A DNA stretch of 64,000 nt from NCBI GenBank assembly GCA_947598155.1, contig CANQFC010000006.1, positions 124,001 to 188,000 on the forward strand, read 5' to 3'. The notes under the pieces are model-generated. The model was given only the letters and a program-made list of their open reading frames with translations. It was not told where the DNA came from and made no database searches. The DNA is from an uncultured Clostridia bacterium (GTDB taxonomy: Bacteria > Bacillota > Clostridia > Oscillospirales > Acutalibacteraceae). How positions within the stretch are numbered: position 1 is the stretch's first letter; every line of letters begins with the position of its first letter. The translations under genes and the position numbers were made by a program. Below are positions 32,102-42,932 of the stretch, in pieces.

Positions 32102-32138
32102 ATTTAATAATTATTCAGGTTTGGGAAGGATGTATGAT

Positions 32139-33815
32139 ATGAAAAGAAGTATAGCTTGCGTGCTCCTCAGCGTATTGATGATGTTTACACTGCTCGCTCC
32201 CGCTTTTGCGGCAGACAAAGAGTGCAACTGCGGGAAAACTCCCGTTATTTCCGTTGTAGGCTTTGGGCATGTTCCGCTTGTTAACGGCGAGGGCACTCAG
32301 GTTTTCGCGCCGGAATCGGACGCAATAGTGAAAGCGGTTCTTCCTTGTATTCCCGCGCTTGTTAAATATCTTTCCGATGACGACGCCGGCGCTCTGCTTG
32401 ACGTCATTATTCCCGCGGCGCAGGCGCTGTTTGACCCTATTAAATGCGATGAAAACGGCGATTCCGTTGACCCGACGGTTACGGTAGAGCGTTTCTTTGA
32501 AACGAGCTGTGATACATATGATTACTGCATTCAAAGCGGAAAGCAAGACGGGCTTTCTCTTGAATGCGCGGAAATTGTCGGCGGCGATCACACGTTTATT
32601 TTCAGCCATGACTGGCGCAGAAGTCCGTTGGACACGGCAAAGGATTTAAACGATTTCATTCAAAAGGTGAAAAAAGCCACAGGCCACAGCAAGGTTTCCA
32701 TAAACGGGCAGTCCATGGGCTCGTGCATAGTTCAGGCCTATTTGGCGCTGTACGGAACACAAGATGTTAAAAATATCGGTATGTTCTCGGGCGCGTTTAC
32801 TGGTCTTGATATGTGCGGCGACCTTTTAACGGGAAAAATCGACATAGACCCCGAAGGGCTTGTTGATATAATAGTTCAGGCTATTAACGGCAGCCCCGAC
32901 AAGAGCGCTCTGGGCGAGCTTTTAAAATACACGGGGCTTTTTGAAAGGGTGCTTGAAAAGCTTTCTCCGATTATAAGCGACGGAGAATATAAAAACAGAA
33001 TTTACAATGAGATTTTCCTTCCGTATTTCGGAATGTACGCAGGCATTTGGTCGTTTGTACCTGAAGAAAAGTTTGACGAGGCGCTGAAATATATGTTTGA
33101 CAACAGTGATTTTACTTTCCACCCGTCAGACGCATATATTGAAAAACTTACGGCTTATCACGACGAGGTACAGGCGACTTTGGCGGAACGCTGCGAGCAG
33201 TACTATGAAGACAAAGATATTTGTTTCAGCATAGTTTCAAACTATAACCGCCAGATAGCTCCCGTAACGCCGTCATCCTCAATGAACTCTGACAGCGTTA
33301 TTGAAACATACCGAACAAGCTACGGCGCGACAGTCGCTGACAGAAATACCGTTCTCGGCGAAAATTACGTTCAGGTGAATGCGGACGGTCACAACCACGT
33401 TTCGCCCGATATTGCAATCGACGCGTCAACGTGCGCTTTCCCCGAATGCACATGGTTCGTTAAAAATATGAATCACGTTCAGTTTGTAAACGGCAGTACG
33501 GCGGCGCTGCACGCGTGGCTTATTACCGCCGACAGGCAATATACTGTTCGGTCAAATCCGATTTTCACTCAGTTCCTCTATTACAATTCAGACGCCGATT
33601 ATATGTCCGTTTATCTTGACAAATACGGCGACGTAAATATGGACGGAAAAATAGACCTCGTAGACGCAAGAATGGCTCTCAGACACTTCCTTGAGAAAGA
33701 TACTCTTGAAAGAGTTAATCTTCAAAGAGCGGACGGCATAACCATTGACGGCGTTGTTACAAAAGACGAGGTACAGTCAATTGCGGATACATATGCCGCC
33801 GATTACAAAGCGTAA
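32139..33815 (+). CDS. Secreted alpha/beta hydrolase with C-terminal dockerin
   Basis: 558 residues. Signal peptide (residues 1-22, ending APAFA). The catalytic domain contains DWRRSPLD and the nucleophile elbow INGQSMGSCIVQAYL (Ser), as in lipase/LCAT-type hydrolases; candidate acid and His residues lie in the 300-450 region but I cannot fix them. The last 60 residues hold two calcium-loop repeats, DVNMDGKIDLVD and ADGITIDGVVTKDE, spaced as in a type I dockerin. Dockerins bind cohesins on scaffold proteins, so the enzyme may be part of a cellulosome-like or surface complex. ATG at 32139 has GGAAGGA 9 bp upstream. It is monocistronic, with its own promoter and terminator. Confidence 0.8.
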   Translation: MKRSIACVLLSVLMMFTLLAPAFAADKECNCGKTPVISVVGFGHVPLVNGEGTQVFAPESDAIVKAVLPCIPALVKYLSDDDAGALLDVIIPAAQALFDPIKCDENGDSVDPTVTVERFFETSCDTYDYCIQSGKQDGLSLECAEIVGGDHTFIFSHDWRRSPLDTAKDLNDFIQKVKKATGHSKVSINGQSMGSCIVQAYLALYGTQDVKNIGMFSGAFTGLDMCGDLLTGKIDIDPEGLVDIIVQAINGSPDKSALGELLKYTGLFERVLEKLSPIISDGEYKNRIYNEIFLPYFGMYAGIWSFVPEEKFDEALKYMFDNSDFTFHPSDAYIEKLTAYHDEVQATLAERCEQYYEDKDICFSIVSNYNRQIAPVTPSSSMNSDSVIETYRTSYGATVADRNTVLGENYVQVNADGHNHVSPDIAIDASTCAFPECTWFVKNMNHVQFVNGSTAALHAWLITADRQYTVRSNPIFTQFLYYNSDADYMSVYLDKYGDVNMDGKIDLVDARMALRHFLEKDTLERVNLQRADGITIDGVVTKDEVQSIADTYAADYKA

Positions 33816-33908: not shown

Positions 33909-33937
33909 TTGACAATTTACGTTTATTGCTATAAAAT
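33909..33937 (+). promoter_or_regulatory. Sigma-A promoter of the cobalamin-riboswitch operon
   Basis: TTGACA, 17-bp spacer, TAAAAT. The expected transcription start is just before the riboswitch P1 stem at 33950. Confidence 0.8.
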
Positions 33938-33949
33938 AATTAGGAATTA

Positions 33950-34122
33950 AGCTTACTGGTTTTCGGGAAACCGAAATTAAAAGGGAATCAGGTCAGAATC
34001 CTGAGCAACCGCCATTACCGTATCAGATGAATTGGGCGCAAAAGCCATTGGAACATTCCGAGAAGGCGCGTTCATACGCTGGTGTCAGCTTTTATCTCAA
34101 GTCGGGAGACCTGCCGTAAGCT
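33950..34122 (+). promoter_or_regulatory. Cobalamin (adenosylcobalamin-type) riboswitch
   Basis: The P1 stem is seven perfect pairs, AGCTTAC (33950-33956) with GTAAGCT (34116-34122). Inside are the family signatures AAAAGGGAATC near 33979, GAATCCTGAGCAACCGCC, a middle hairpin region with GCCATTGG, and near the 3' end AGTCGGGAGACCTGCC, the most conserved box of this class. It lies between a sigma-A promoter and a terminator that precedes the lipoprotein gene, so B12 binding should switch that terminator. It replaces most of the 401-bp gap between genes. Confidence 0.93.
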
Positions 34123-34186
34123 ATTTTAATTTTTAAACTCTTGGGCAATGGGAGAGTTGAGGATAGATATTATCTTTTACACTACA

Positions 34187-34212
34187 CCTCTGCCCGAAAG
34201 CAGAGGTTTTTT
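34187..34212 (+). terminator. Riboswitch expression-platform terminator
   Basis: CCTCTGC-ccgaaa-GCAGAGG then TTTTTT, ending 4 bp before the ATG at 34217. The GAGG that would serve as ribosome site is the right arm of this stem, so closing it would block both elongation and translation. Confidence 0.88.
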
Positions 34213-34216
34213 GTTT

Positions 34217-34897
34217 ATGAAAAAATTTATCGCGCTTTTTTTGTCGATTTTGATGTGCGTTTCGTTTGCCGCCTGCGGGAAAAGTCCCGAAAGTACAAGC
34301 GCTGAAGGCGCGCAGACGGCAGACAGCGGAGAAACATATTCAAATGTTGCGGAAAAATCCGAAAGCATAACGGAAAAGAACAGCGGGGAAAGCTCCGAAA
34401 AAAATTCCGAAACGCCCTCAAAGGCAAGTCCTGCGGAAAACGGCGCAACGGAAACGGAAAAAGCGCATTCGGTTTCGCAGTCGGCGGTATCTTCCGCAGT
34501 TCAGACAACTTCGTCCCCGTCAAATCCGGACTCAAAAATCACCTGCACTGTTCAGGCCGAATGTAAAAAGATACTCGCCAAAAAAAATAAATTTAAAAAG
34601 GATATTTCGCTTATTGAGCCTGACGGCGTAATACTTGCGCCTGTAAAAGTTTATCTCGACGACGGCGCAACGGCTTATGACGCTTTGAAAAAGGCGTGTG
34701 ATGAAAACGGTATAGCGCTGAACGTACAAAATTCAACTTGGGGCGTTTATGTTGTCGGCATCGGCGGTATAGAGGAAAAGGATTGCGGACCCCAGAGCGG
34801 ATGGCTGTATTTCGTTAACGGCAAATCGCCCAGCACAGGGTTAAGCAATTACAAAATTAAAAGCGGAGACAGCTTAACGCTTTCTTACACTTGCTGA
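34217..34897 (+). CDS. B12-regulated lipoprotein with DUF4430 (transcobalamin beta-like) domain
   Basis: 226 residues. Lipoprotein signal peptide with the lipobox FAAC (Cys20), then a 90-residue Ser/Thr/Glu-rich low-complexity linker that would span the wall, then a C-terminal domain from about residue 130. That domain contains KVYLDDGATAYDALKKAC, STWGVYVVGIGGIEE, GWLYFVNGKSPSTGLSNY and KSGDSLTLSY, the DUF4430 pattern, whose fold is shared by the C-terminal domain of human intrinsic factor and transcobalamin. Control by a cobalamin riboswitch fits a role in B12 capture. The start at 34148 is rejected since it lies upstream of the terminator and has no signal peptide at its start. The alpha-like partner gene follows 34 bp on. 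Confidence 0.85.
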   Translation: MKKFIALFLSILMCVSFAACGKSPESTSAEGAQTADSGETYSNVAEKSESITEKNSGESSEKNSETPSKASPAENGATETEKAHSVSQSAVSSAVQTTSSPSNPDSKITCTVQAECKKILAKKNKFKKDISLIEPDGVILAPVKVYLDDGATAYDALKKACDENGIALNVQNSTWGVYVVGIGGIEEKDCGPQSGWLYFVNGKSPSTGLSNYKIKSGDSLTLSYTC

Positions 34898-34931
34898 TTT
34901 TGAAAAAAATAATAAAAAAGGAGATAAAAAA

Positions 34932-36035
34932 ATGAAAAAAACAATCAGTGCGGTATTAGCGGTAATCATTGCGGCGGTATGTACCTTTTCGGTATTTGCG
35001 GGCACGGCTCCGAGCAGGAAAAGCGTATTAAAAGAGCTTGAAGCGGCCGCGTCATATGTCAGCAACGGAGTAACGGAGTATGCGGCTGACAGCGCGGAAA
35101 ATTATTACTATATCGCGAAAGCAGGCGCAAAGGGAGCCGAATATTATGACGGCTTTTTGCAGAGCGTAAAGGACAACCTCAATGCCAACGGCGGAAAGCT
35201 TGTTACGGCTGACGGCGAAAATATACACTCATACGCCGCTGTAATAGGCATAATAGACGCTATGGGCGGCGACCCGACAGATGTTGACTCCGTAAATCTT
35301 GTTGAGCTTTTTGAGAAATCGGACATATCGACGGTTTCAAACCCCTATTACTACAACATAGTGATTCCAGTTGCCGCAAAGCATTGCGCGCAGGATTTTG
35401 TCAAATCGCTGTGTGAATTATTTACCGAAAGCAATTACACAATGGGAAGCGGTATGGATTATTGGGGCTTTTCGTGTGATAATACCGCTATGTTTATTTC
35501 TGCGGTTGCGCAGTGCGGACTTGACAGCTTTGACGGCGTTCTTGATGACGCTGTAAAGGTTTTGGAAACTTATAAAACAGAGGGCGGCTACGTCTATAAT
35601 CCCGAGTACGGCACGGCGCCGAACGCCAGCTCAACAGCTCTCGCCTTAATGGCTAAATGTGAATATTACGCGCATAAGGGCGCTGTGAGCGAAAATATTG
35701 ACGAGCTCAGCGATTTATATAGCGAGCTTTTAGCCTTTAAGGGGCAAACTAACGGCAGTTATAATTATGACGGCACGGAAAGCGTATTTTCGGCGTTCGA
35801 CGCTGTAAAGGGGCTTGAATCCCTTTACAAAGTTTTGCCGATTGAGACCGTCGACGAAGATAAAACGCCCGAAAAGCCCGCCGTTACTGAGCCGAACACG
35901 AATAACGGCAACGCAGAGCAGAAAAATCCCGATATTCCCAACACGGACGGCAGATTTATGTTATTGCCCGCCGCGCCCTTAATCGGAATTATCTTTGCCG
36001 CCGCAAAGAAAATTAAGAGAGAAAACGCCGATTAA
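34932..36035 (+). CDS. Secreted alpha/alpha-toroid (transcobalamin alpha-like) protein, wall-anchor-like tail
   Basis: 367 residues. Signal peptide 1-23 (ending SVFA). The body (about 30-305) is helical with the repeat pattern of prenyltransferase/terpene-cyclase toroids: YAAVIGIIDAMGGDP, YWGFSCDNTAMFISAVAQCG, EGGYVYNPEYGTAPNASSTALALMA and NGSYNYDGTESVFSAFDAVKGLESL. This is the fold of the N-terminal alpha domain of intrinsic factor and transcobalamin. A Pro/Asn/Glu linker follows, then IPNTDG, a hydrophobic helix and KKIKREN, resembling a sortase sorting signal (variant of LPxTG) or a simple tail anchor. ATG with AAGGAG. It is co-transcribed with the DUF4430 lipoprotein under the B12 riboswitch. 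Confidence 0.8.
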   Translation: MKKTISAVLAVIIAAVCTFSVFAGTAPSRKSVLKELEAAASYVSNGVTEYAADSAENYYYIAKAGAKGAEYYDGFLQSVKDNLNANGGKLVTADGENIHSYAAVIGIIDAMGGDPTDVDSVNLVELFEKSDISTVSNPYYYNIVIPVAAKHCAQDFVKSLCELFTESNYTMGSGMDYWGFSCDNTAMFISAVAQCGLDSFDGVLDDAVKVLETYKTEGGYVYNPEYGTAPNASSTALALMAKCEYYAHKGAVSENIDELSDLYSELLAFKGQTNGSYNYDGTESVFSAFDAVKGLESLYKVLPIETVDEDKTPEKPAVTEPNTNNGNAEQKNPDIPNTDGRFMLLPAAPLIGIIFAAAKKIKRENAD

Positions 36036-36046
36036 GCGCAAAAAAC

Positions 36047-36076
36047 AACTCCCGATTTTCGTCGGGAGTTTAGTTT
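36047..36076 (+). terminator. Terminator after the B12 operon (first of two identical hairpins)
   Basis: AACTCCCGA-ttttcg-TCGGGAGTT then TTAGTTT, 12 bp after the stop codon. The identical 24-nt hairpin recurs at 36330. Confidence 0.75.
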
Positions 36077-36327
36077 GTAGAAAAAGTATGCGTTACTTAG
36101 GTATATGCACAAAAGTGATAAGATTATGGGGAACCCCCCGGCGAGGGTTCCCCACCGAAAAACAGTCCGCCGGACTATTTTTCGCCCCTCCTGCGCTTTT
36201 AAAGCACAAGAATTTCGCAGCCTGCGGGCTGCGATGAGGGCGTTGCCCCTCAACCCCACCGCCTTTTGAAAAAGGCGGGCGAAAACTTTTAGTTATTTTG
36301 CAATCGCAAAATAGTTTATCGACAGAA
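36077..36327. repeat. Palindrome-rich non-coding segment between twin terminators
   Basis: About 250 bp without a credible gene. It holds a chain of hairpins: GGGGAACCC with GGGTTCCCC (36129-36156), GCAGCC-tgc-GGGCTGC (near 36218), GCCTTTT/AAAAAGGC (near 36262) and TATTTTGC-aatc-GCAAAATA (near 36295), plus the GGGCGTTGCCCC tract. It is G+C-richer than its flanks. It resembles repetitive intergenic material rather than a gene; I cannot name it. Confidence 0.5.
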
Positions 36328-36360
36328 TTAACTCCCGATTTTCGTCGGGAGTTAATTTTT
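36328..36360. terminator. Second identical terminator hairpin
   Basis: TTAACTCCCGA-ttttcg-TCGGGAGTTAA then TTTTTAT. It abuts the stop codon of the minus-strand ECF gene and has a T-tail on the plus strand. Confidence 0.7.
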
Positions 36361-36889
36361 ATTTGGCTGATTTAGGCGAATGAACCTTTCGGAGCGCCTC
36401 GGAGAGCGGAACTATCAACAACCCCGTCGCAAGGTTTCCGAGCGCGTGAATTAAATCAAAAGGGATTCCCGCGATTATCCACGCTATCATAGCTTTAAAA
36501 TTCAAATGAAACATAAGAGCCTGAGCGGGCGCGTAAAGAGTCCCGAATAAAAGCCCGTGCGCGGCGCAAACGGCGGCGTAAACGGGAACAGCCGTTTTTT
36601 TGCTCATATTTTTCGGAAGGAGCATAGTCGCGGCCCAAAGAATCGCCCATAAATAAAGATAGGGAATCCACCAAGGTGAGAATCCCGCATAAAGCCCGTT
36701 GATAAAAACATAGACATAAATGGGAATAAGCGCTTTTTTGCGGTAGACTATTGTGTAAACCATGGTAAGCATTCCTAAAAAGTGGACGTTTGGCAGTACT
36801 TCCATAAGAATTTTTGAAATAAACATTATTGTGCCGAGCATGGCAAAAATAATCATATCCGCGAGATTTTTTAGATTTATTTTTTTCAT
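36359..36889 (-). CDS. ECF transporter S-component-like membrane protein
   Basis: 176 residues with about six hydrophobic segments and a short basic start (MKKINLKNLADMIIFAMLGTIMF). Size, helix count and the segment HFLGMLTMVYTIVYRKKALIPIYVYVFINGLYAGFSPWWIPYLYLWAI fit the S (substrate-binding) subunits of energy-coupling-factor vitamin transporters. The vitamin cannot be read from sequence. Its position tail-to-tail with the B12 operon hints at cobalamin, but it has no cobalamin riboswitch; its promoter instead carries a palindromic operator. CGGAG precedes the ATG by 9 bp. Confidence 0.65.
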   Translation of the reverse strand: MKKINLKNLADMIIFAMLGTIMFISKILMEVLPNVHFLGMLTMVYTIVYRKKALIPIYVYVFINGLYAGFSPWWIPYLYLWAILWAATMLLPKNMSKKTAVPVYAAVCAAHGLLFGTLYAPAQALMFHLNFKAMIAWIIAGIPFDLIHALGNLATGLLIVPLSEALRKVHSPKSAK

Positions 36890-38909: not shown

Positions 38910-40043
38910 TTGAAAAACAATCCTGTTATTATCGATTTGCAGAATATAAGCGTAAGCTTTGGTGAACAGAAAATTTTAAACAACATAAGCCTTCAGATTC
39001 ACGACGGTGAGTTTGTAACATTGCTAGGGCCCTCAGGTTGCGGAAAAACTACAACTTTAAGGATAATTGCCGGCTTTCTTAACCCCGATGAGGGCAATGT
39101 GATTTTTGAGGGTAAAAATATCAATGGTGTTCCGCCGTATAAAAGGCAGGTTAACACCATTTTTCAGCGTTATGCGTTGTTTCCGTATCTGAACGTATAT
39201 GAAAACATTGCTTTCGGTCTGCGCCTTAAAAAGATGAAAGAAAAGGATATTCAGGCAAAGGTTAAAGAGATGCTGGAGCTTGTAAACCTTAAAGGTTTCG
39301 GTTCAAGAAATATTGATTCTCTTTCGGGCGGGCAGCAGCAGAGAGTTGCCATCGCCCGCGCCTTGGCGGTCGACCCGAGAGTAGTTTTGCTTGACGAGCC
39401 TTTGGGAGCTTTGGATTTAAAGCTTCGCAAGGATATGCAGGTCGAGCTTAAAAATATTCAGCAGAAACTCGGCATAACGTTTATTTATGTCACGCACGAC
39501 CAAGAGGAAGCTCTTTCAATGTCCGACACCATTGTTGTTATGAACAACGGTGAAATTCAACATATAGGTACGCCGACGGACATATATAATGAGCCTAAAA
39601 ACGCGTTTGTGGCGGATTTTATCGGCGAAAGCAATATTCTTGACGGAATTATGCGCGAAGACTTTAACGTTGAATTTGAAGGTATGCGCTTTAAGTGCGT
39701 GGATAAGGGCTTTTCCCAGAATGAGCCTGTTGACGTCGTTGTCCGTCCGGAGGATGTTGATATTGTTCCGGAAAACGAGGGTATGCTCAAAGGGGAAGTG
39801 ACCTCCGTAACCTTTAAGGGCGTGCATTATGAAATTATCGTTGATATTAACGGCTTTAAGTGGATGATTCAGACTACTGAAAAGTCTGAGGTAGGCGACA
39901 GAATAGGCATCTCGGTCAAACCCGATGAAATTCATATTATGAAAAAGTCCGAGTATTCCGGTCTTTACGGCGATTACAGCTCGTTCAGCGAAGAGTTTGA
40001 CATTCTTTCTGACCCGACTGTTTCCGAGGAGGACAGTGAGTAA
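38910..40043 (+). CDS. potA: Spermidine/putrescine ABC transporter, ATP-binding protein
   Basis: 377 residues, TTG start with AAGGGG 7 bp upstream. The ATPase powers polyamine import. Walker [16 protein letters not shown]-loop [16 protein letters not shown], signature [15 protein letters not shown], Walker [18 protein letters not shown]-loop [14 protein letters not shown]. The C-terminal TOBE-like regulatory domain (about 290-355) is typical of PotA. The stop codon and the potB start share one base (TAATG). Confidence 0.96.
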
Positions 40044-40870
40044 TGAAAAATTCCTCGGTTATTCAAAAACTTATAAATGCGCCGTATATTTTGTGGTCGG
40101 TGCTTTTTGTGATAGCTCCGCTCATAATGGTAATTTATTACGCTTTTACGGACAGAACGGGCGCGTTTACCCTTGACAACGTCAAAAGCATAGGCGACTA
40201 TCTGAGCACCTTTATTCTCTCGGTAGGGTACGGCGCGGTTGCCACGCTTATTTGCCTTATAATTGCTTATCCGTTTGCGTATTTTTTGGCGCATACGGGC
40301 GCGTCTTTCCAAAGAATGTCCGTAATGCTTGTAATGCTGCCCATGTGGATGAGCTTTCTTATCCGTACATATTCCTGGATGACTATTTTGGGCGATTCGG
40401 GAGTTATCAATTCCTTTTTGGGACGGTTCGGCATAGAGCCGCTTTCAATGCTCAACACGCCCGGAGCCGTTATACTCGGTATGGTTTATAACTTTTTACC
40501 GTATATGATTTTGCCTATATACACGGTTATGGCAAAAATGGACGGCTCGCTTATTGAGGCGGCGCAGGATTTGGGATGCGGCAAACTGCATTGCGTAAAA
40601 AAGGTTATTCTTCCGCTTTCTGTTCCGGGAATAGTCAGCGGAATAACAATGGTATTTGTCCCGTCTGTAAGTACGTTCTATATAACGCAAAAGCTTGGCG
40701 GCGGGCAGATAAACCTTATAGGCGACGTTATAGAGGGGCAGTTCCAAACTGCCAATAACTATAATCTCGGCGCGGCGCTGTCATTGCTGCTTATGGTGAT
40801 GATTTTGATTTGCCTGGGCGTACTCGGCTATTTCACCGACAGCGAAGATGAAGGAGGAGTATTGATATGA
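40043..40870 (+). CDS. potB: Spermidine/putrescine ABC transporter permease
   Basis: 275 residues with six membrane helices. First helix LWSVLFVIAPLIMVIYYAFTD and the EAA loop AKMDGSLIEAAQDLGCGKLHCVKKVILPLSVPGIVSGI that contacts PotA identify it as the PotB-type permease. It overlaps potC by 4 bp (ATGA). Confidence 0.95.
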   Translation: MKNSSVIQKLINAPYILWSVLFVIAPLIMVIYYAFTDRTGAFTLDNVKSIGDYLSTFILSVGYGAVATLICLIIAYPFAYFLAHTGASFQRMSVMLVMLPMWMSFLIRTYSWMTILGDSGVINSFLGRFGIEPLSMLNTPGAVILGMVYNFLPYMILPIYTVMAKMDGSLIEAAQDLGCGKLHCVKKVILPLSVPGIVSGITMVFVPSVSTFYITQKLGGGQINLIGDVIEGQFQTANNYNLGAALSLLLMVMILICLGVLGYFTDSEDEGGVLI

Positions 40871-41694
40871 CAAAGACGTCTGCTCTTTCAAAACTCTATA
40901 TAGCGCTTGTATTTATATTCCTTTATGCGCCCATGGCCGTTATGACGGTATTTTCCTTTAACGGAAGCGACAGCACTTATATTATGGACGGCGTATCCCT
41001 GCAATGGTACCAGCGTCTTTTTAACGACAGTATGACGATGAACGCTTTAAAAAACACCGTTATATTGGCTGTCGTTTCAGCGTTGATTTCAACTTTGCTC
41101 GGTTCCGCGGCGGCGGTCGGCATTTACAATATGAAAAATAAATATTTGAAATCCTCGGTTATGACGGTTACGAATATTCCTATGATGAATCCCGAAATAG
41201 TAACGGGTATTTCAATGATGCTTTTGTTTGTGTTCGCGGGGGTAATGCTTAACAGAAAAAACGTTCTTGGCTTTGCGACAATTTTAATCGCGCACATTAC
41301 GTTTCAGCTCCCGTACGTTATTCTCTCTGTTTTGCCGAAACTGCGGCAGTCAGACCCAAGCGTTTTTGAGGCGGCGCAGGATTTGGGATGCCACCCGGCG
41401 AAGGCATTTTTTAAGGCCGTGCTTCCGCAGATAAGGTCGGGGATTGTCGCGGGCGCAATAATGGCGTTTACGCTGTCGCTTGACGATTTCATTATCAGCT
41501 ATTTTACAAACGGGCCTGATTTTCAGACTCTCCCCATACACATTTTCTCAATGACGAAAAAACGTGTAAAACCTGATATGTACGCTTTATCAACGCTTAT
41601 TTTTGCGGTTATTTTTATCCTGCTTGTTCTAATGAATATCGCTCAGTCCAAATCCGACCAAAAGCAGAGAAAGCAAAGGGAGGAACGGGTATGA
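40867..41694 (+). CDS. potC: Spermidine/putrescine ABC transporter permease
   Basis: 275 residues, six membrane helices. The start LYIALVFIFLYAPMAVMTVFSFNGS is highly typical of PotC; EAA loop QSDPSVFEAAQDLGCHPAKAFFKAVLPQIRSGIV; conserved AFTLSLDDFIISYF. It forms the channel with PotB. The start overlaps potB and the stop overlaps potD by 4 bp each, so the four genes are translationally coupled. Confidence 0.96.
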   Translation: MTKTSALSKLYIALVFIFLYAPMAVMTVFSFNGSDSTYIMDGVSLQWYQRLFNDSMTMNALKNTVILAVVSALISTLLGSAAAVGIYNMKNKYLKSSVMTVTNIPMMNPEIVTGISMMLLFVFAGVMLNRKNVLGFATILIAHITFQLPYVILSVLPKLRQSDPSVFEAAQDLGCHPAKAFFKAVLPQIRSGIVAGAIMAFTLSLDDFIISYFTNGPDFQTLPIHIFSMTKKRVKPDMYALSTLIFAVIFILLVLMNIAQSKSDQKQRKQREERV

Positions 41695-42932
41695 AAAAGC
41701 TGGCTTCGTTTTTCCTGACCGCGGTTGTTATTATGTCGGTTTGCATTTTTCCCGTAAGCGCGCAGGATGATGAAATTTTCTCCGATGAGGTTGTCAAATA
41801 TTATGCGTCGCTCGGCCTTAAAGGTACGACTATCAATGTTTATAACTGGGGCGAGTACATTGACGATGAAGAGGTAGACGTAATTTCTCAGTTTGAACGC
41901 TTAACGGGCTGTAAGGTGAATTACACCACATTTGAATCTAACGAAAATATGTACTCTAAACTTTCGGGCGGCGGAGTCAGCTATGACGTTGTCGTTCCGT
42001 CGGACTATACCGTTGAAAAGCTGATGGAAGAGGGGATGCTTGAAAAAATCGACTTCAATAATATCCCCAATTATGCAAAATATTTTGACAGCGAGCAGTA
42101 CGGATACTTGCTTGAAGACGAAGTAAACGGCGAAAAAATTCGCGATTATGCCGTAATTTACAATGTGGGCACGACAATTTTGATTTACAACACCAAATAT
42201 GTTAAGGAAAAACCCGACAGCTGGAGCGTTCTGTGGGACGAACAGTACAAAGGTAAGGTGCTTATGTTTAATAATCCCCGCGACTCGTTCGCGATAGCGC
42301 AATTTCTGCTCGGTCAGGACCTTAACAGCACTAATCCCGCAGACTGGGACGCGGCGGCTCAGCTTTTAAAGGAACAGCGTGAAAAGGTACAGCCGTCATA
42401 TGTTATGGACGAGGTTTTCGTGAAAATGGAGAGCGGCGACTATTATTTTGCGGCGTATTACGCGGGCGATTTTGAGGTTATGGTTGAAAACAATCCCGAT
42501 TTGGATTACGTTTTTCCGAAAGAGGGGGTAAACTCGTTTTACGACGCGTTCTGTATTCCGAAAGGCACTCAAAACAAAAAGGGCGCGGAGGCTTTTATCA
42601 ACTTTATGATGGAGCCTGAAATTGCCCTTGCAAATGCCGAATACATTTATTACGCCACTCCAAATAAAGCCGTTATGGAAAACGACGAATATTCTCTTGC
42701 GGATTCCAAGGCCGTTTACCCAGATGAGGGCGACATTGCGCATTCGCAGGTCTTTCACAATCTTCCGAATGACACCCTTCAGTATATGAACACTTTATGG
42801 ATGAAAGTCAAAGGCGGCAACAACTCCGAATGGGTTTACAAGGCGTTTTTCATCTGCGCCGCGGCGGTTACGGCAATAATTATAATTTCCGTAATTCGCA
42901 AGCGTAAAATGAAAAAATATTATGACGTTTAA
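41691..42932 (+). CDS. potD: Polyamine-binding protein PotD with C-terminal membrane anchor
   Basis: 413 residues. Captures polyamines outside the membrane. N-terminal signal peptide of about 24 residues (ending PVSA) without a lipobox Cys. The mature domain has INVYNWGEYIDDEE, GVSYDVVVPSDYTVEKLMEEGML, NVGTTILIYNTKYV, the DWDAAAQLLKEQR region and PSYVMDEVF as in PotD. After the usual end there is one more helix, FFICAAAVTAIIIISVI, and a basic tail RKRKMKKYYDV, so the protein seems held by a C-terminal membrane anchor instead of a lipid. A terminator follows 14 bp after the stop. Confidence 0.93.
   Translation: MKKLASFFLTAVVIMSVCIFPVSAQDDEIFSDEVVKYYASLGLKGTTINVYNWGEYIDDEEVDVISQFERLTGCKVNYTTFESNENMYSKLSGGGVSYDVVVPSDYTVEKLMEEGMLEKIDFNNIPNYAKYFDSEQYGYLLEDEVNGEKIRDYAVIYNVGTTILIYNTKYVKEKPDSWSVLWDEQYKGKVLMFNNPRDSFAIAQFLLGQDLNSTNPADWDAAAQLLKEQREKVQPSYVMDEVFVKMESGDYYFAAYYAGDFEVMVENNPDLDYVFPKEGVNSFYDAFCIPKGTQNKKGAEAFINFMMEPEIALANAEYIYYATPNKAVMENDEYSLADSKAVYPDEGDIAHSQVFHNLPNDTLQYMNTLWMKVKGGNNSEWVYKAFFICAAAVTAIIIISVIRKRKMKKYYDV

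Follow-up and report, generated by a model that had tools for sequence, protein, structure and literature searches.

A cobalamin riboswitch-controlled lipoprotein and alpha/alpha-toroid protein of a Clostridia genome: probable capture of vitamin B12 at the cell surface for an ECF-type importer

The vitamin B12 (cobalamin) carriers of animals, intrinsic factor, transcobalamin and haptocorrin, join an alpha/alpha toroid and a beta domain in one chain. In Bacteroides, B12 is caught by the surface lipoprotein BtuG, a beta-propeller on the outer membrane which serves BtuB. Among the energy-coupling factor (ECF) transporters, ECF-CbrT is specific for B12 and is available as PDB 6FNP, according to the relevant part of PMC5997447. 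Here we analyzed a window of 64,000 nucleotides (contig CANQFC010000006.1, positions 124,001 to 188,000) from an uncultured Clostridia bacterium of the Acutalibacteraceae, which shows a cobalamin riboswitch followed by the genes of a DUF4430 lipoprotein and of a secreted alpha/alpha-toroid protein. An earlier note on this DNA had read these elements as a split, intrinsic-factor-like B12 capture system, and had overlooked the CbrT-type importer gene that adjoins the pair. The locus is probably a cobalamin riboswitch-controlled surface capture module for an ECF-type B12 importer, and we have high confidence in B12 capture and uptake as its function.

The window resembles the animal carriers in combining the beta-domain fold with an alpha/alpha-toroid partner; however, the two are separate proteins instead of one chain, each with a predicted anchor signal, the toroid shows no cobalamin-binding Pfam hit and is weakly transcobalamin-like by Foldseek, and the place of a cubilin- or CD320-type receptor is taken by an adjoining ECF importer gene. 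The proposed working is that of BtuG, a surface lipoprotein catching B12 for an importer, although both the fold and the importer are different. ECF-CbrT is represented by the convergent gene at 36359-36889, which its profile match places in the CbrT family; the word "lipoprotein" is absent from the main text of PMC5997447, and the relevant part mentions no extracellular capture protein. A Lacticaseibacillus rhamnosus protein is annotated as "Additional lipoprotein component of putative cobalamin ECF transporter", the same role as proposed here for the beta-half lipoprotein, in a part of PMC9963975 that also names a DUF4430 protein encoded near the rtpR gene and does not state whether the two are identical. 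That case is an annotation only, and this part of the source mentions neither a toroid, nor a structure, nor a link to intrinsic factor. Ruminococcus gnavus RUMGNA_00854 (PDB 3U7Z), also among the closest known proteins, is labelled "putative metal binding protein" with no function given. The cobalamin ECF lipoprotein presumably exists as a role in the SEED annotation system. The kinship of the beta domain, as a classification, and the ECF role of such a lipoprotein, as an annotation, are already in print, and the system is not wholly new, as the earlier note had taken it to be. Among the open-licence papers listed in our searches, none described the toroid partner, bacterial proteins that fuse alpha and beta parts, or an intrinsic-factor-like system made of two cell-anchored pieces.

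The leader starts with a sigma-70-type promoter match, TTGACA-17-TAAAAT (33909-33937, forward strand, 11 of 12 consensus positions), located directly 5' of the aptamer and with the top score among the promoter sites listed. By itself this match is weak evidence, since 10 similar sites were observed between 33800 and 37100, versus 5.4 +/- 2.6 in shuffles. The aptamer (33939-34132, forward strand) covers the full RF00174 model (1-189) with 93.8 bits, above the gathering score of 31.5, and is the sole RF00174 match in the whole 2.14-Mb genome, which is 99.7% complete. It is followed by a terminator hairpin (34186-34207, forward strand) with a stem of 8 and a T-rich tail that reaches the ATG at 34217, 9 bases beyond the hairpin. 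Such a hairpin was found in 24 of 27 riboswitch leaders (the window and 26 relatives), versus 2 of 270 mononucleotide shuffles. In an alternative fold of the leader, an upstream UUGGGCA pairs with the 5' arm of the terminator and is a likely antiterminator. Both terminator and alternative fold are consistent with ligand binding and expression control by the riboswitch. The succession of promoter, riboswitch and terminator described in the earlier note is confirmed, and its reading of the pair as riboswitch-controlled is supported. Furthermore, the 3' arm of the terminator (AGAGG) sits at the expected position of the ribosome-binding site for ATG 34217, and the ATG lies 4-10 bases past the hairpin in 12 of the 17 leaders where DUF4430 comes first (window, L110-L124 and L126), so the hairpin probably also masks the ribosome site. 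The other five comprise three leaders without a hairpin, one without a nearby ATG and one with the ATG 38 bases on.

The first gene (34217-34897, forward strand) encodes a lipoprotein of 226 amino acid residues; its start at ATG 34217 was judged likely, while the mechanical open reading frame begins at 34148. A lipobox, MKKFIALFLSILMCVSFAAC-GK, was identified by eye, and the C-terminal transcobalamin-type beta domain (approximately 34664-34891) matches PF14478 (DUF4430) at residues 150-225 with an E-value of 7.6e-17 and 62 bits (cut-off 23.8). Structural comparison was positive for the beta-domain fold of intrinsic factor and transcobalamin, as the earlier note had proposed. Against the PDB, transcobalamin-2 ranks first by sequence (E 0.025) and intrinsic factor by profile (E 0.058), both suggestive and not significant, and the kinship of the domain therefore rests on the structural comparison. 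The protein thus carries an intrinsic-factor-type beta domain, which would bind cobalamin at the membrane.

The second gene (34932-36035, forward strand) encodes a protein of 367 residues whose N-terminus resembles a signal peptide. Its AlphaFold model bears out the predicted alpha/alpha toroid (approximately 35010-35849), with block-mean pLDDT of 90-99 over residues 31-300. The tail (approximately 35925-36032) shows NPDIPNTDG, then a hydrophobic stretch and then KK; the LPXTG-like site is IPNTD in the window type, IPNTG or IPKTG in other loci of the genus and SPATG in others, and the genome has five sortase matches. Neither a Pfam match above cut-off nor a credible PDB sequence match was found for the toroid protein, and the eukaryotic cobalamin-binding family was not among its Pfam hits with E-values up to 1. 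PF00432, the prenyltransferase-type toroid, gave no hit in the window protein; two related toroid proteins exceed its cut-off (31.8 and 29.8 bits versus 26.5). Since the iterated toroid profile drifted, also taking the DUF4430 proteins L083 and L084 outside their DUF4430 domain, toroid homology was judged by a separate profile, A6, made without window-type sequences, which missed one (G009) of the seven window-type genomes. A terminator-like hairpin, found on both strands, lies 3' of the gene (36047-36070, forward strand). The intergenic palindrome at 36164-36187 is single in the window, and among the fetched loci exact copies appear only in two loci from the window's own genome.

The convergent gene (36359-36889, reverse strand) encodes a membrane-type protein of 176 residues with no Pfam match at E 0.1. 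For profile A5, built from this protein and nine relatives, the single PDB match of significance is to chain A of 6FNP, a chain of 182 residues, with an E-value of 3.5e-8 over positions 4-172, nearly the whole length. This chain is named merely "Membrane protein" in its record; we take it as the CbrT S component because its size fits and because of the relevant part of PMC5997447. The gene product is accordingly placed by profile in the CbrT family, and would transport B12 with the ECF module. The S-component gene comes directly 3' of the riboswitch and a short DUF4430 gene in 15 genus loci, an order that ties DUF4430 to CbrT. The window genome has one EcfT match and one protein with a B12-binding domain, the fetched part of which adds pterin-binding and homocysteine methyltransferase domains, a content that suggests a methionine-synthase-like protein. 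No match was found in this genome to the FecCD permease (BtuC kind) or to CobS, the one biosynthesis gene searched for. The bacterium seems to use B12 and to depend on importing it, and the window locus is the only B12 import candidate found in the genome.

Across the genus, 40 riboswitch matches (three of them under the Rfam cut-off) were found in 37 of 39 genomes, and DUF4430 is located downstream on the same strand in 38 of these 40 loci, the nearest within 4.9 kb. Conversely, of the 47 DUF4430 matches of the genus, 40 have a riboswitch no more than 8 kb upstream. A chance riboswitch was considered and is ruled out by these neighbourhood counts. The two riboswitches without downstream DUF4430 belong to G013, where the contig is 5.1 kb long, and to G060. 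The latter genome lacks DUF4430 and shows a BtuF/BtuC-like pair behind a below-cut-off riboswitch match (L107); in G060 the two systems seem to replace each other. In the named collection, toroid relatives were found in 32 loci, six of them genus members already counted. A riboswitch is upstream in 26, and the remaining six have at most 1.1 kb of sequence before the match. DUF4430 adjoins the toroid in 16 of these 26. In L082 (G006), a toroid match (G006:C8:74555-74938) lies in a reading frame that contains one internal TAG stop, and the same operon carries a second, open toroid gene. Four riboswitch-led toroid proteins of approximately 720-760 residues (L127, L130, L131 and L133) have approximately 230-290 residues N-terminal of the toroid, a C end that is fibronectin-like by eye and no DUF4430 neighbour seen; these additional N-terminal residues may form a further half that binds cobalamin.

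Among 291 sampled genomes of the class, DUF4430 is present in 133 and a cobalamin riboswitch in 229. Of 20 DUF4430 loci chosen along the better-scoring matches listed, 14 are preceded, on the same strand and at no more than approximately 7 kb, by a cobalamin riboswitch, where chance would give well under one (a rough estimate, with a few riboswitches per genome of approximately 2 Mb). A toroid was found in 16 of the 20 loci and EcfT in 15. Furthermore, toroid and DUF4430 are part of a single chain in nine of them, three (L149, L151 and L154) with the toroid N-terminal as in the animal carriers, and also in three genus loci (L086, L106 and L108). The L151 chain has approximately 507 residues, with the toroid at 7-296 and DUF4430 at 424-498. 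Four class loci (L150, L152, L153 and L159) combine two toroids with at least two DUF4430 domains, within a single gene or in adjacent ones, as might serve avidity or the binding of several cobamides.

These data suggest the following working of the locus. With plentiful B12 the riboswitch would favour the terminator and neither lipoprotein nor toroid would be made, while under scarcity the switch would open and both would be produced. Outside the membrane, the lipid-anchored DUF4430 domain would capture cobalamin, and the toroid, anchored in the wall or membrane by its sortase-like tail, would contribute the alpha-type half and close over the ligand. The vitamin would then be passed to the CbrT-family S component, imported by the shared ECF motor and supplied to methionine synthase. 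The closing of both proteins together on one cobalamin is a reasonable expectation of intermediate confidence. Such a split clamp is physically reasonable, because in vitro the ligand brings together the two domains of human transcobalamin, alpha and beta, when these are produced as separate proteins (relevant part of PMC5599065). A fuller version, in which a two-piece bacterial intrinsic factor, with a lipid-anchored beta half and a wall-anchored alpha half, joins only around cobalamin and feeds CbrT, and the single-chain proteins of the class share ancestry with the animal carriers, is put forward tentatively, as somewhat doubtful. In that case animals and some of their gut bacteria might use related proteins in competing for B12.

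Several observations weigh against this interpretation. The likeness to transcobalamin claimed for both proteins held for the beta-domain fold and was weaker than claimed for the toroid, where Foldseek ranks transcobalamin no higher than 13th (E 5.6e-3). The fold of the toroid is a generic one, and the 50 VIA-align rows listed are GH88/GH105 enzymes, terpene cyclases, epimerases and others, and the absence of transcobalamin and intrinsic factor among these 50 excludes nothing. The window toroid is tied to the other toroids by a local match (E 7.4e-5). In the window the S component is encoded on the other strand, outside riboswitch control, and it is adjacent in only three of the seven genomes with the window toroid type, one of the other four ending at a contig edge. 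In addition, 10 of the 26 riboswitch-preceded toroid loci have no recognized DUF4430 neighbour, and six of the 20 sampled DUF4430 loci have no riboswitch, two of which (L151 and L158) with little upstream sequence. Finally, the halves are separable: the 15 genus loci with riboswitch, DUF4430 and CbrT lack a toroid. Of the 12 genomes whose only riboswitch has that arrangement (G013, with a second riboswitch, was excluded), 10 have no toroid match, several being less than 90% complete; the matches in the other two, G024 (E 4.3e-5) and G023 (E 9.4e-4), are limited to the first 48 and 83 columns and are probably not toroids. Since each half occurs without the other, an obligatory clamp is doubtful, and the beta domain may be the core receptor with the toroid as an affinity-raising lid.

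The toroid-less loci and genomes also favour a reading where the DUF4430 lipoprotein serves by itself as cobalamin receptor for CbrT and the toroid acts separately, under the same control, in scavenging from other carriers or in independent wall holding; furthermore, the isolated beta domain of human transcobalamin binds cobalamin (5np4; relevant part of PMC5599065). However, the single chains of toroid and DUF4430 in the class and genus loci argue against it, and where a locus has no toroid its DUF4430 protein is shorter (138-175 residues in mechanical open reading frames, compared with 226 for the window protein and a greater length for most of the others) and may for this reason be a different subtype. 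We consider this reading unlikely, if the one most worth keeping in view. The VIA-align rows also raise the alternative that the toroid is a lyase, glycoside hydrolase or cyclase acting to release or alter cobamides or their carriers, with the DUF4430 protein binding the product, but identity in the enzyme rows is just 7-14%, the DXDD motif of class II cyclases is absent, non-enzymatic transcobalamin has the same fold and the recurrent partner of the toroid is a cobalamin-type beta domain, which makes this reading very improbable. Most improbable is a system that merely responds to B12 while its ligand is cobalt, cobinamide or some unrelated nutrient: cobalt transporters also occur in cobalamin riboswitch regulons and cobinamide is also taken by ECF-CbrT (relevant parts of PMC3766115 and PMC5997447, respectively), but the S component is related to CbrT, the beta domain is of intrinsic-factor type and the single biosynthesis gene searched, CobS, had no match.

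Upstream of the leader, 32121-33815 (forward strand) encodes a secreted, lipase-like alpha/beta-hydrolase with a C-terminal type I dockerin. In relatives of the genus, L110-L114 among them, a similar protein immediately precedes the riboswitch, and there is no sign that it is part of the B12 module. At 38910-42932 (forward strand), inspection of the open reading frames suggests genes for the ATPase, the binding protein and two permeases of an ABC transporter of polyamine type.

Surface capture of B12 by single-membrane gut bacteria is, in our judgement, far less known than in Bacteroides, and a widespread system with parts of intrinsic factor would, if the proposed capture module is correct, explain how such bacteria capture B12. 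It would also give a testable role to DUF4430, a domain of unknown function present in 133 of the 291 class genomes, and would bear on host-microbe competition for B12. The origin of the animal B12 carriers would then become directly testable.
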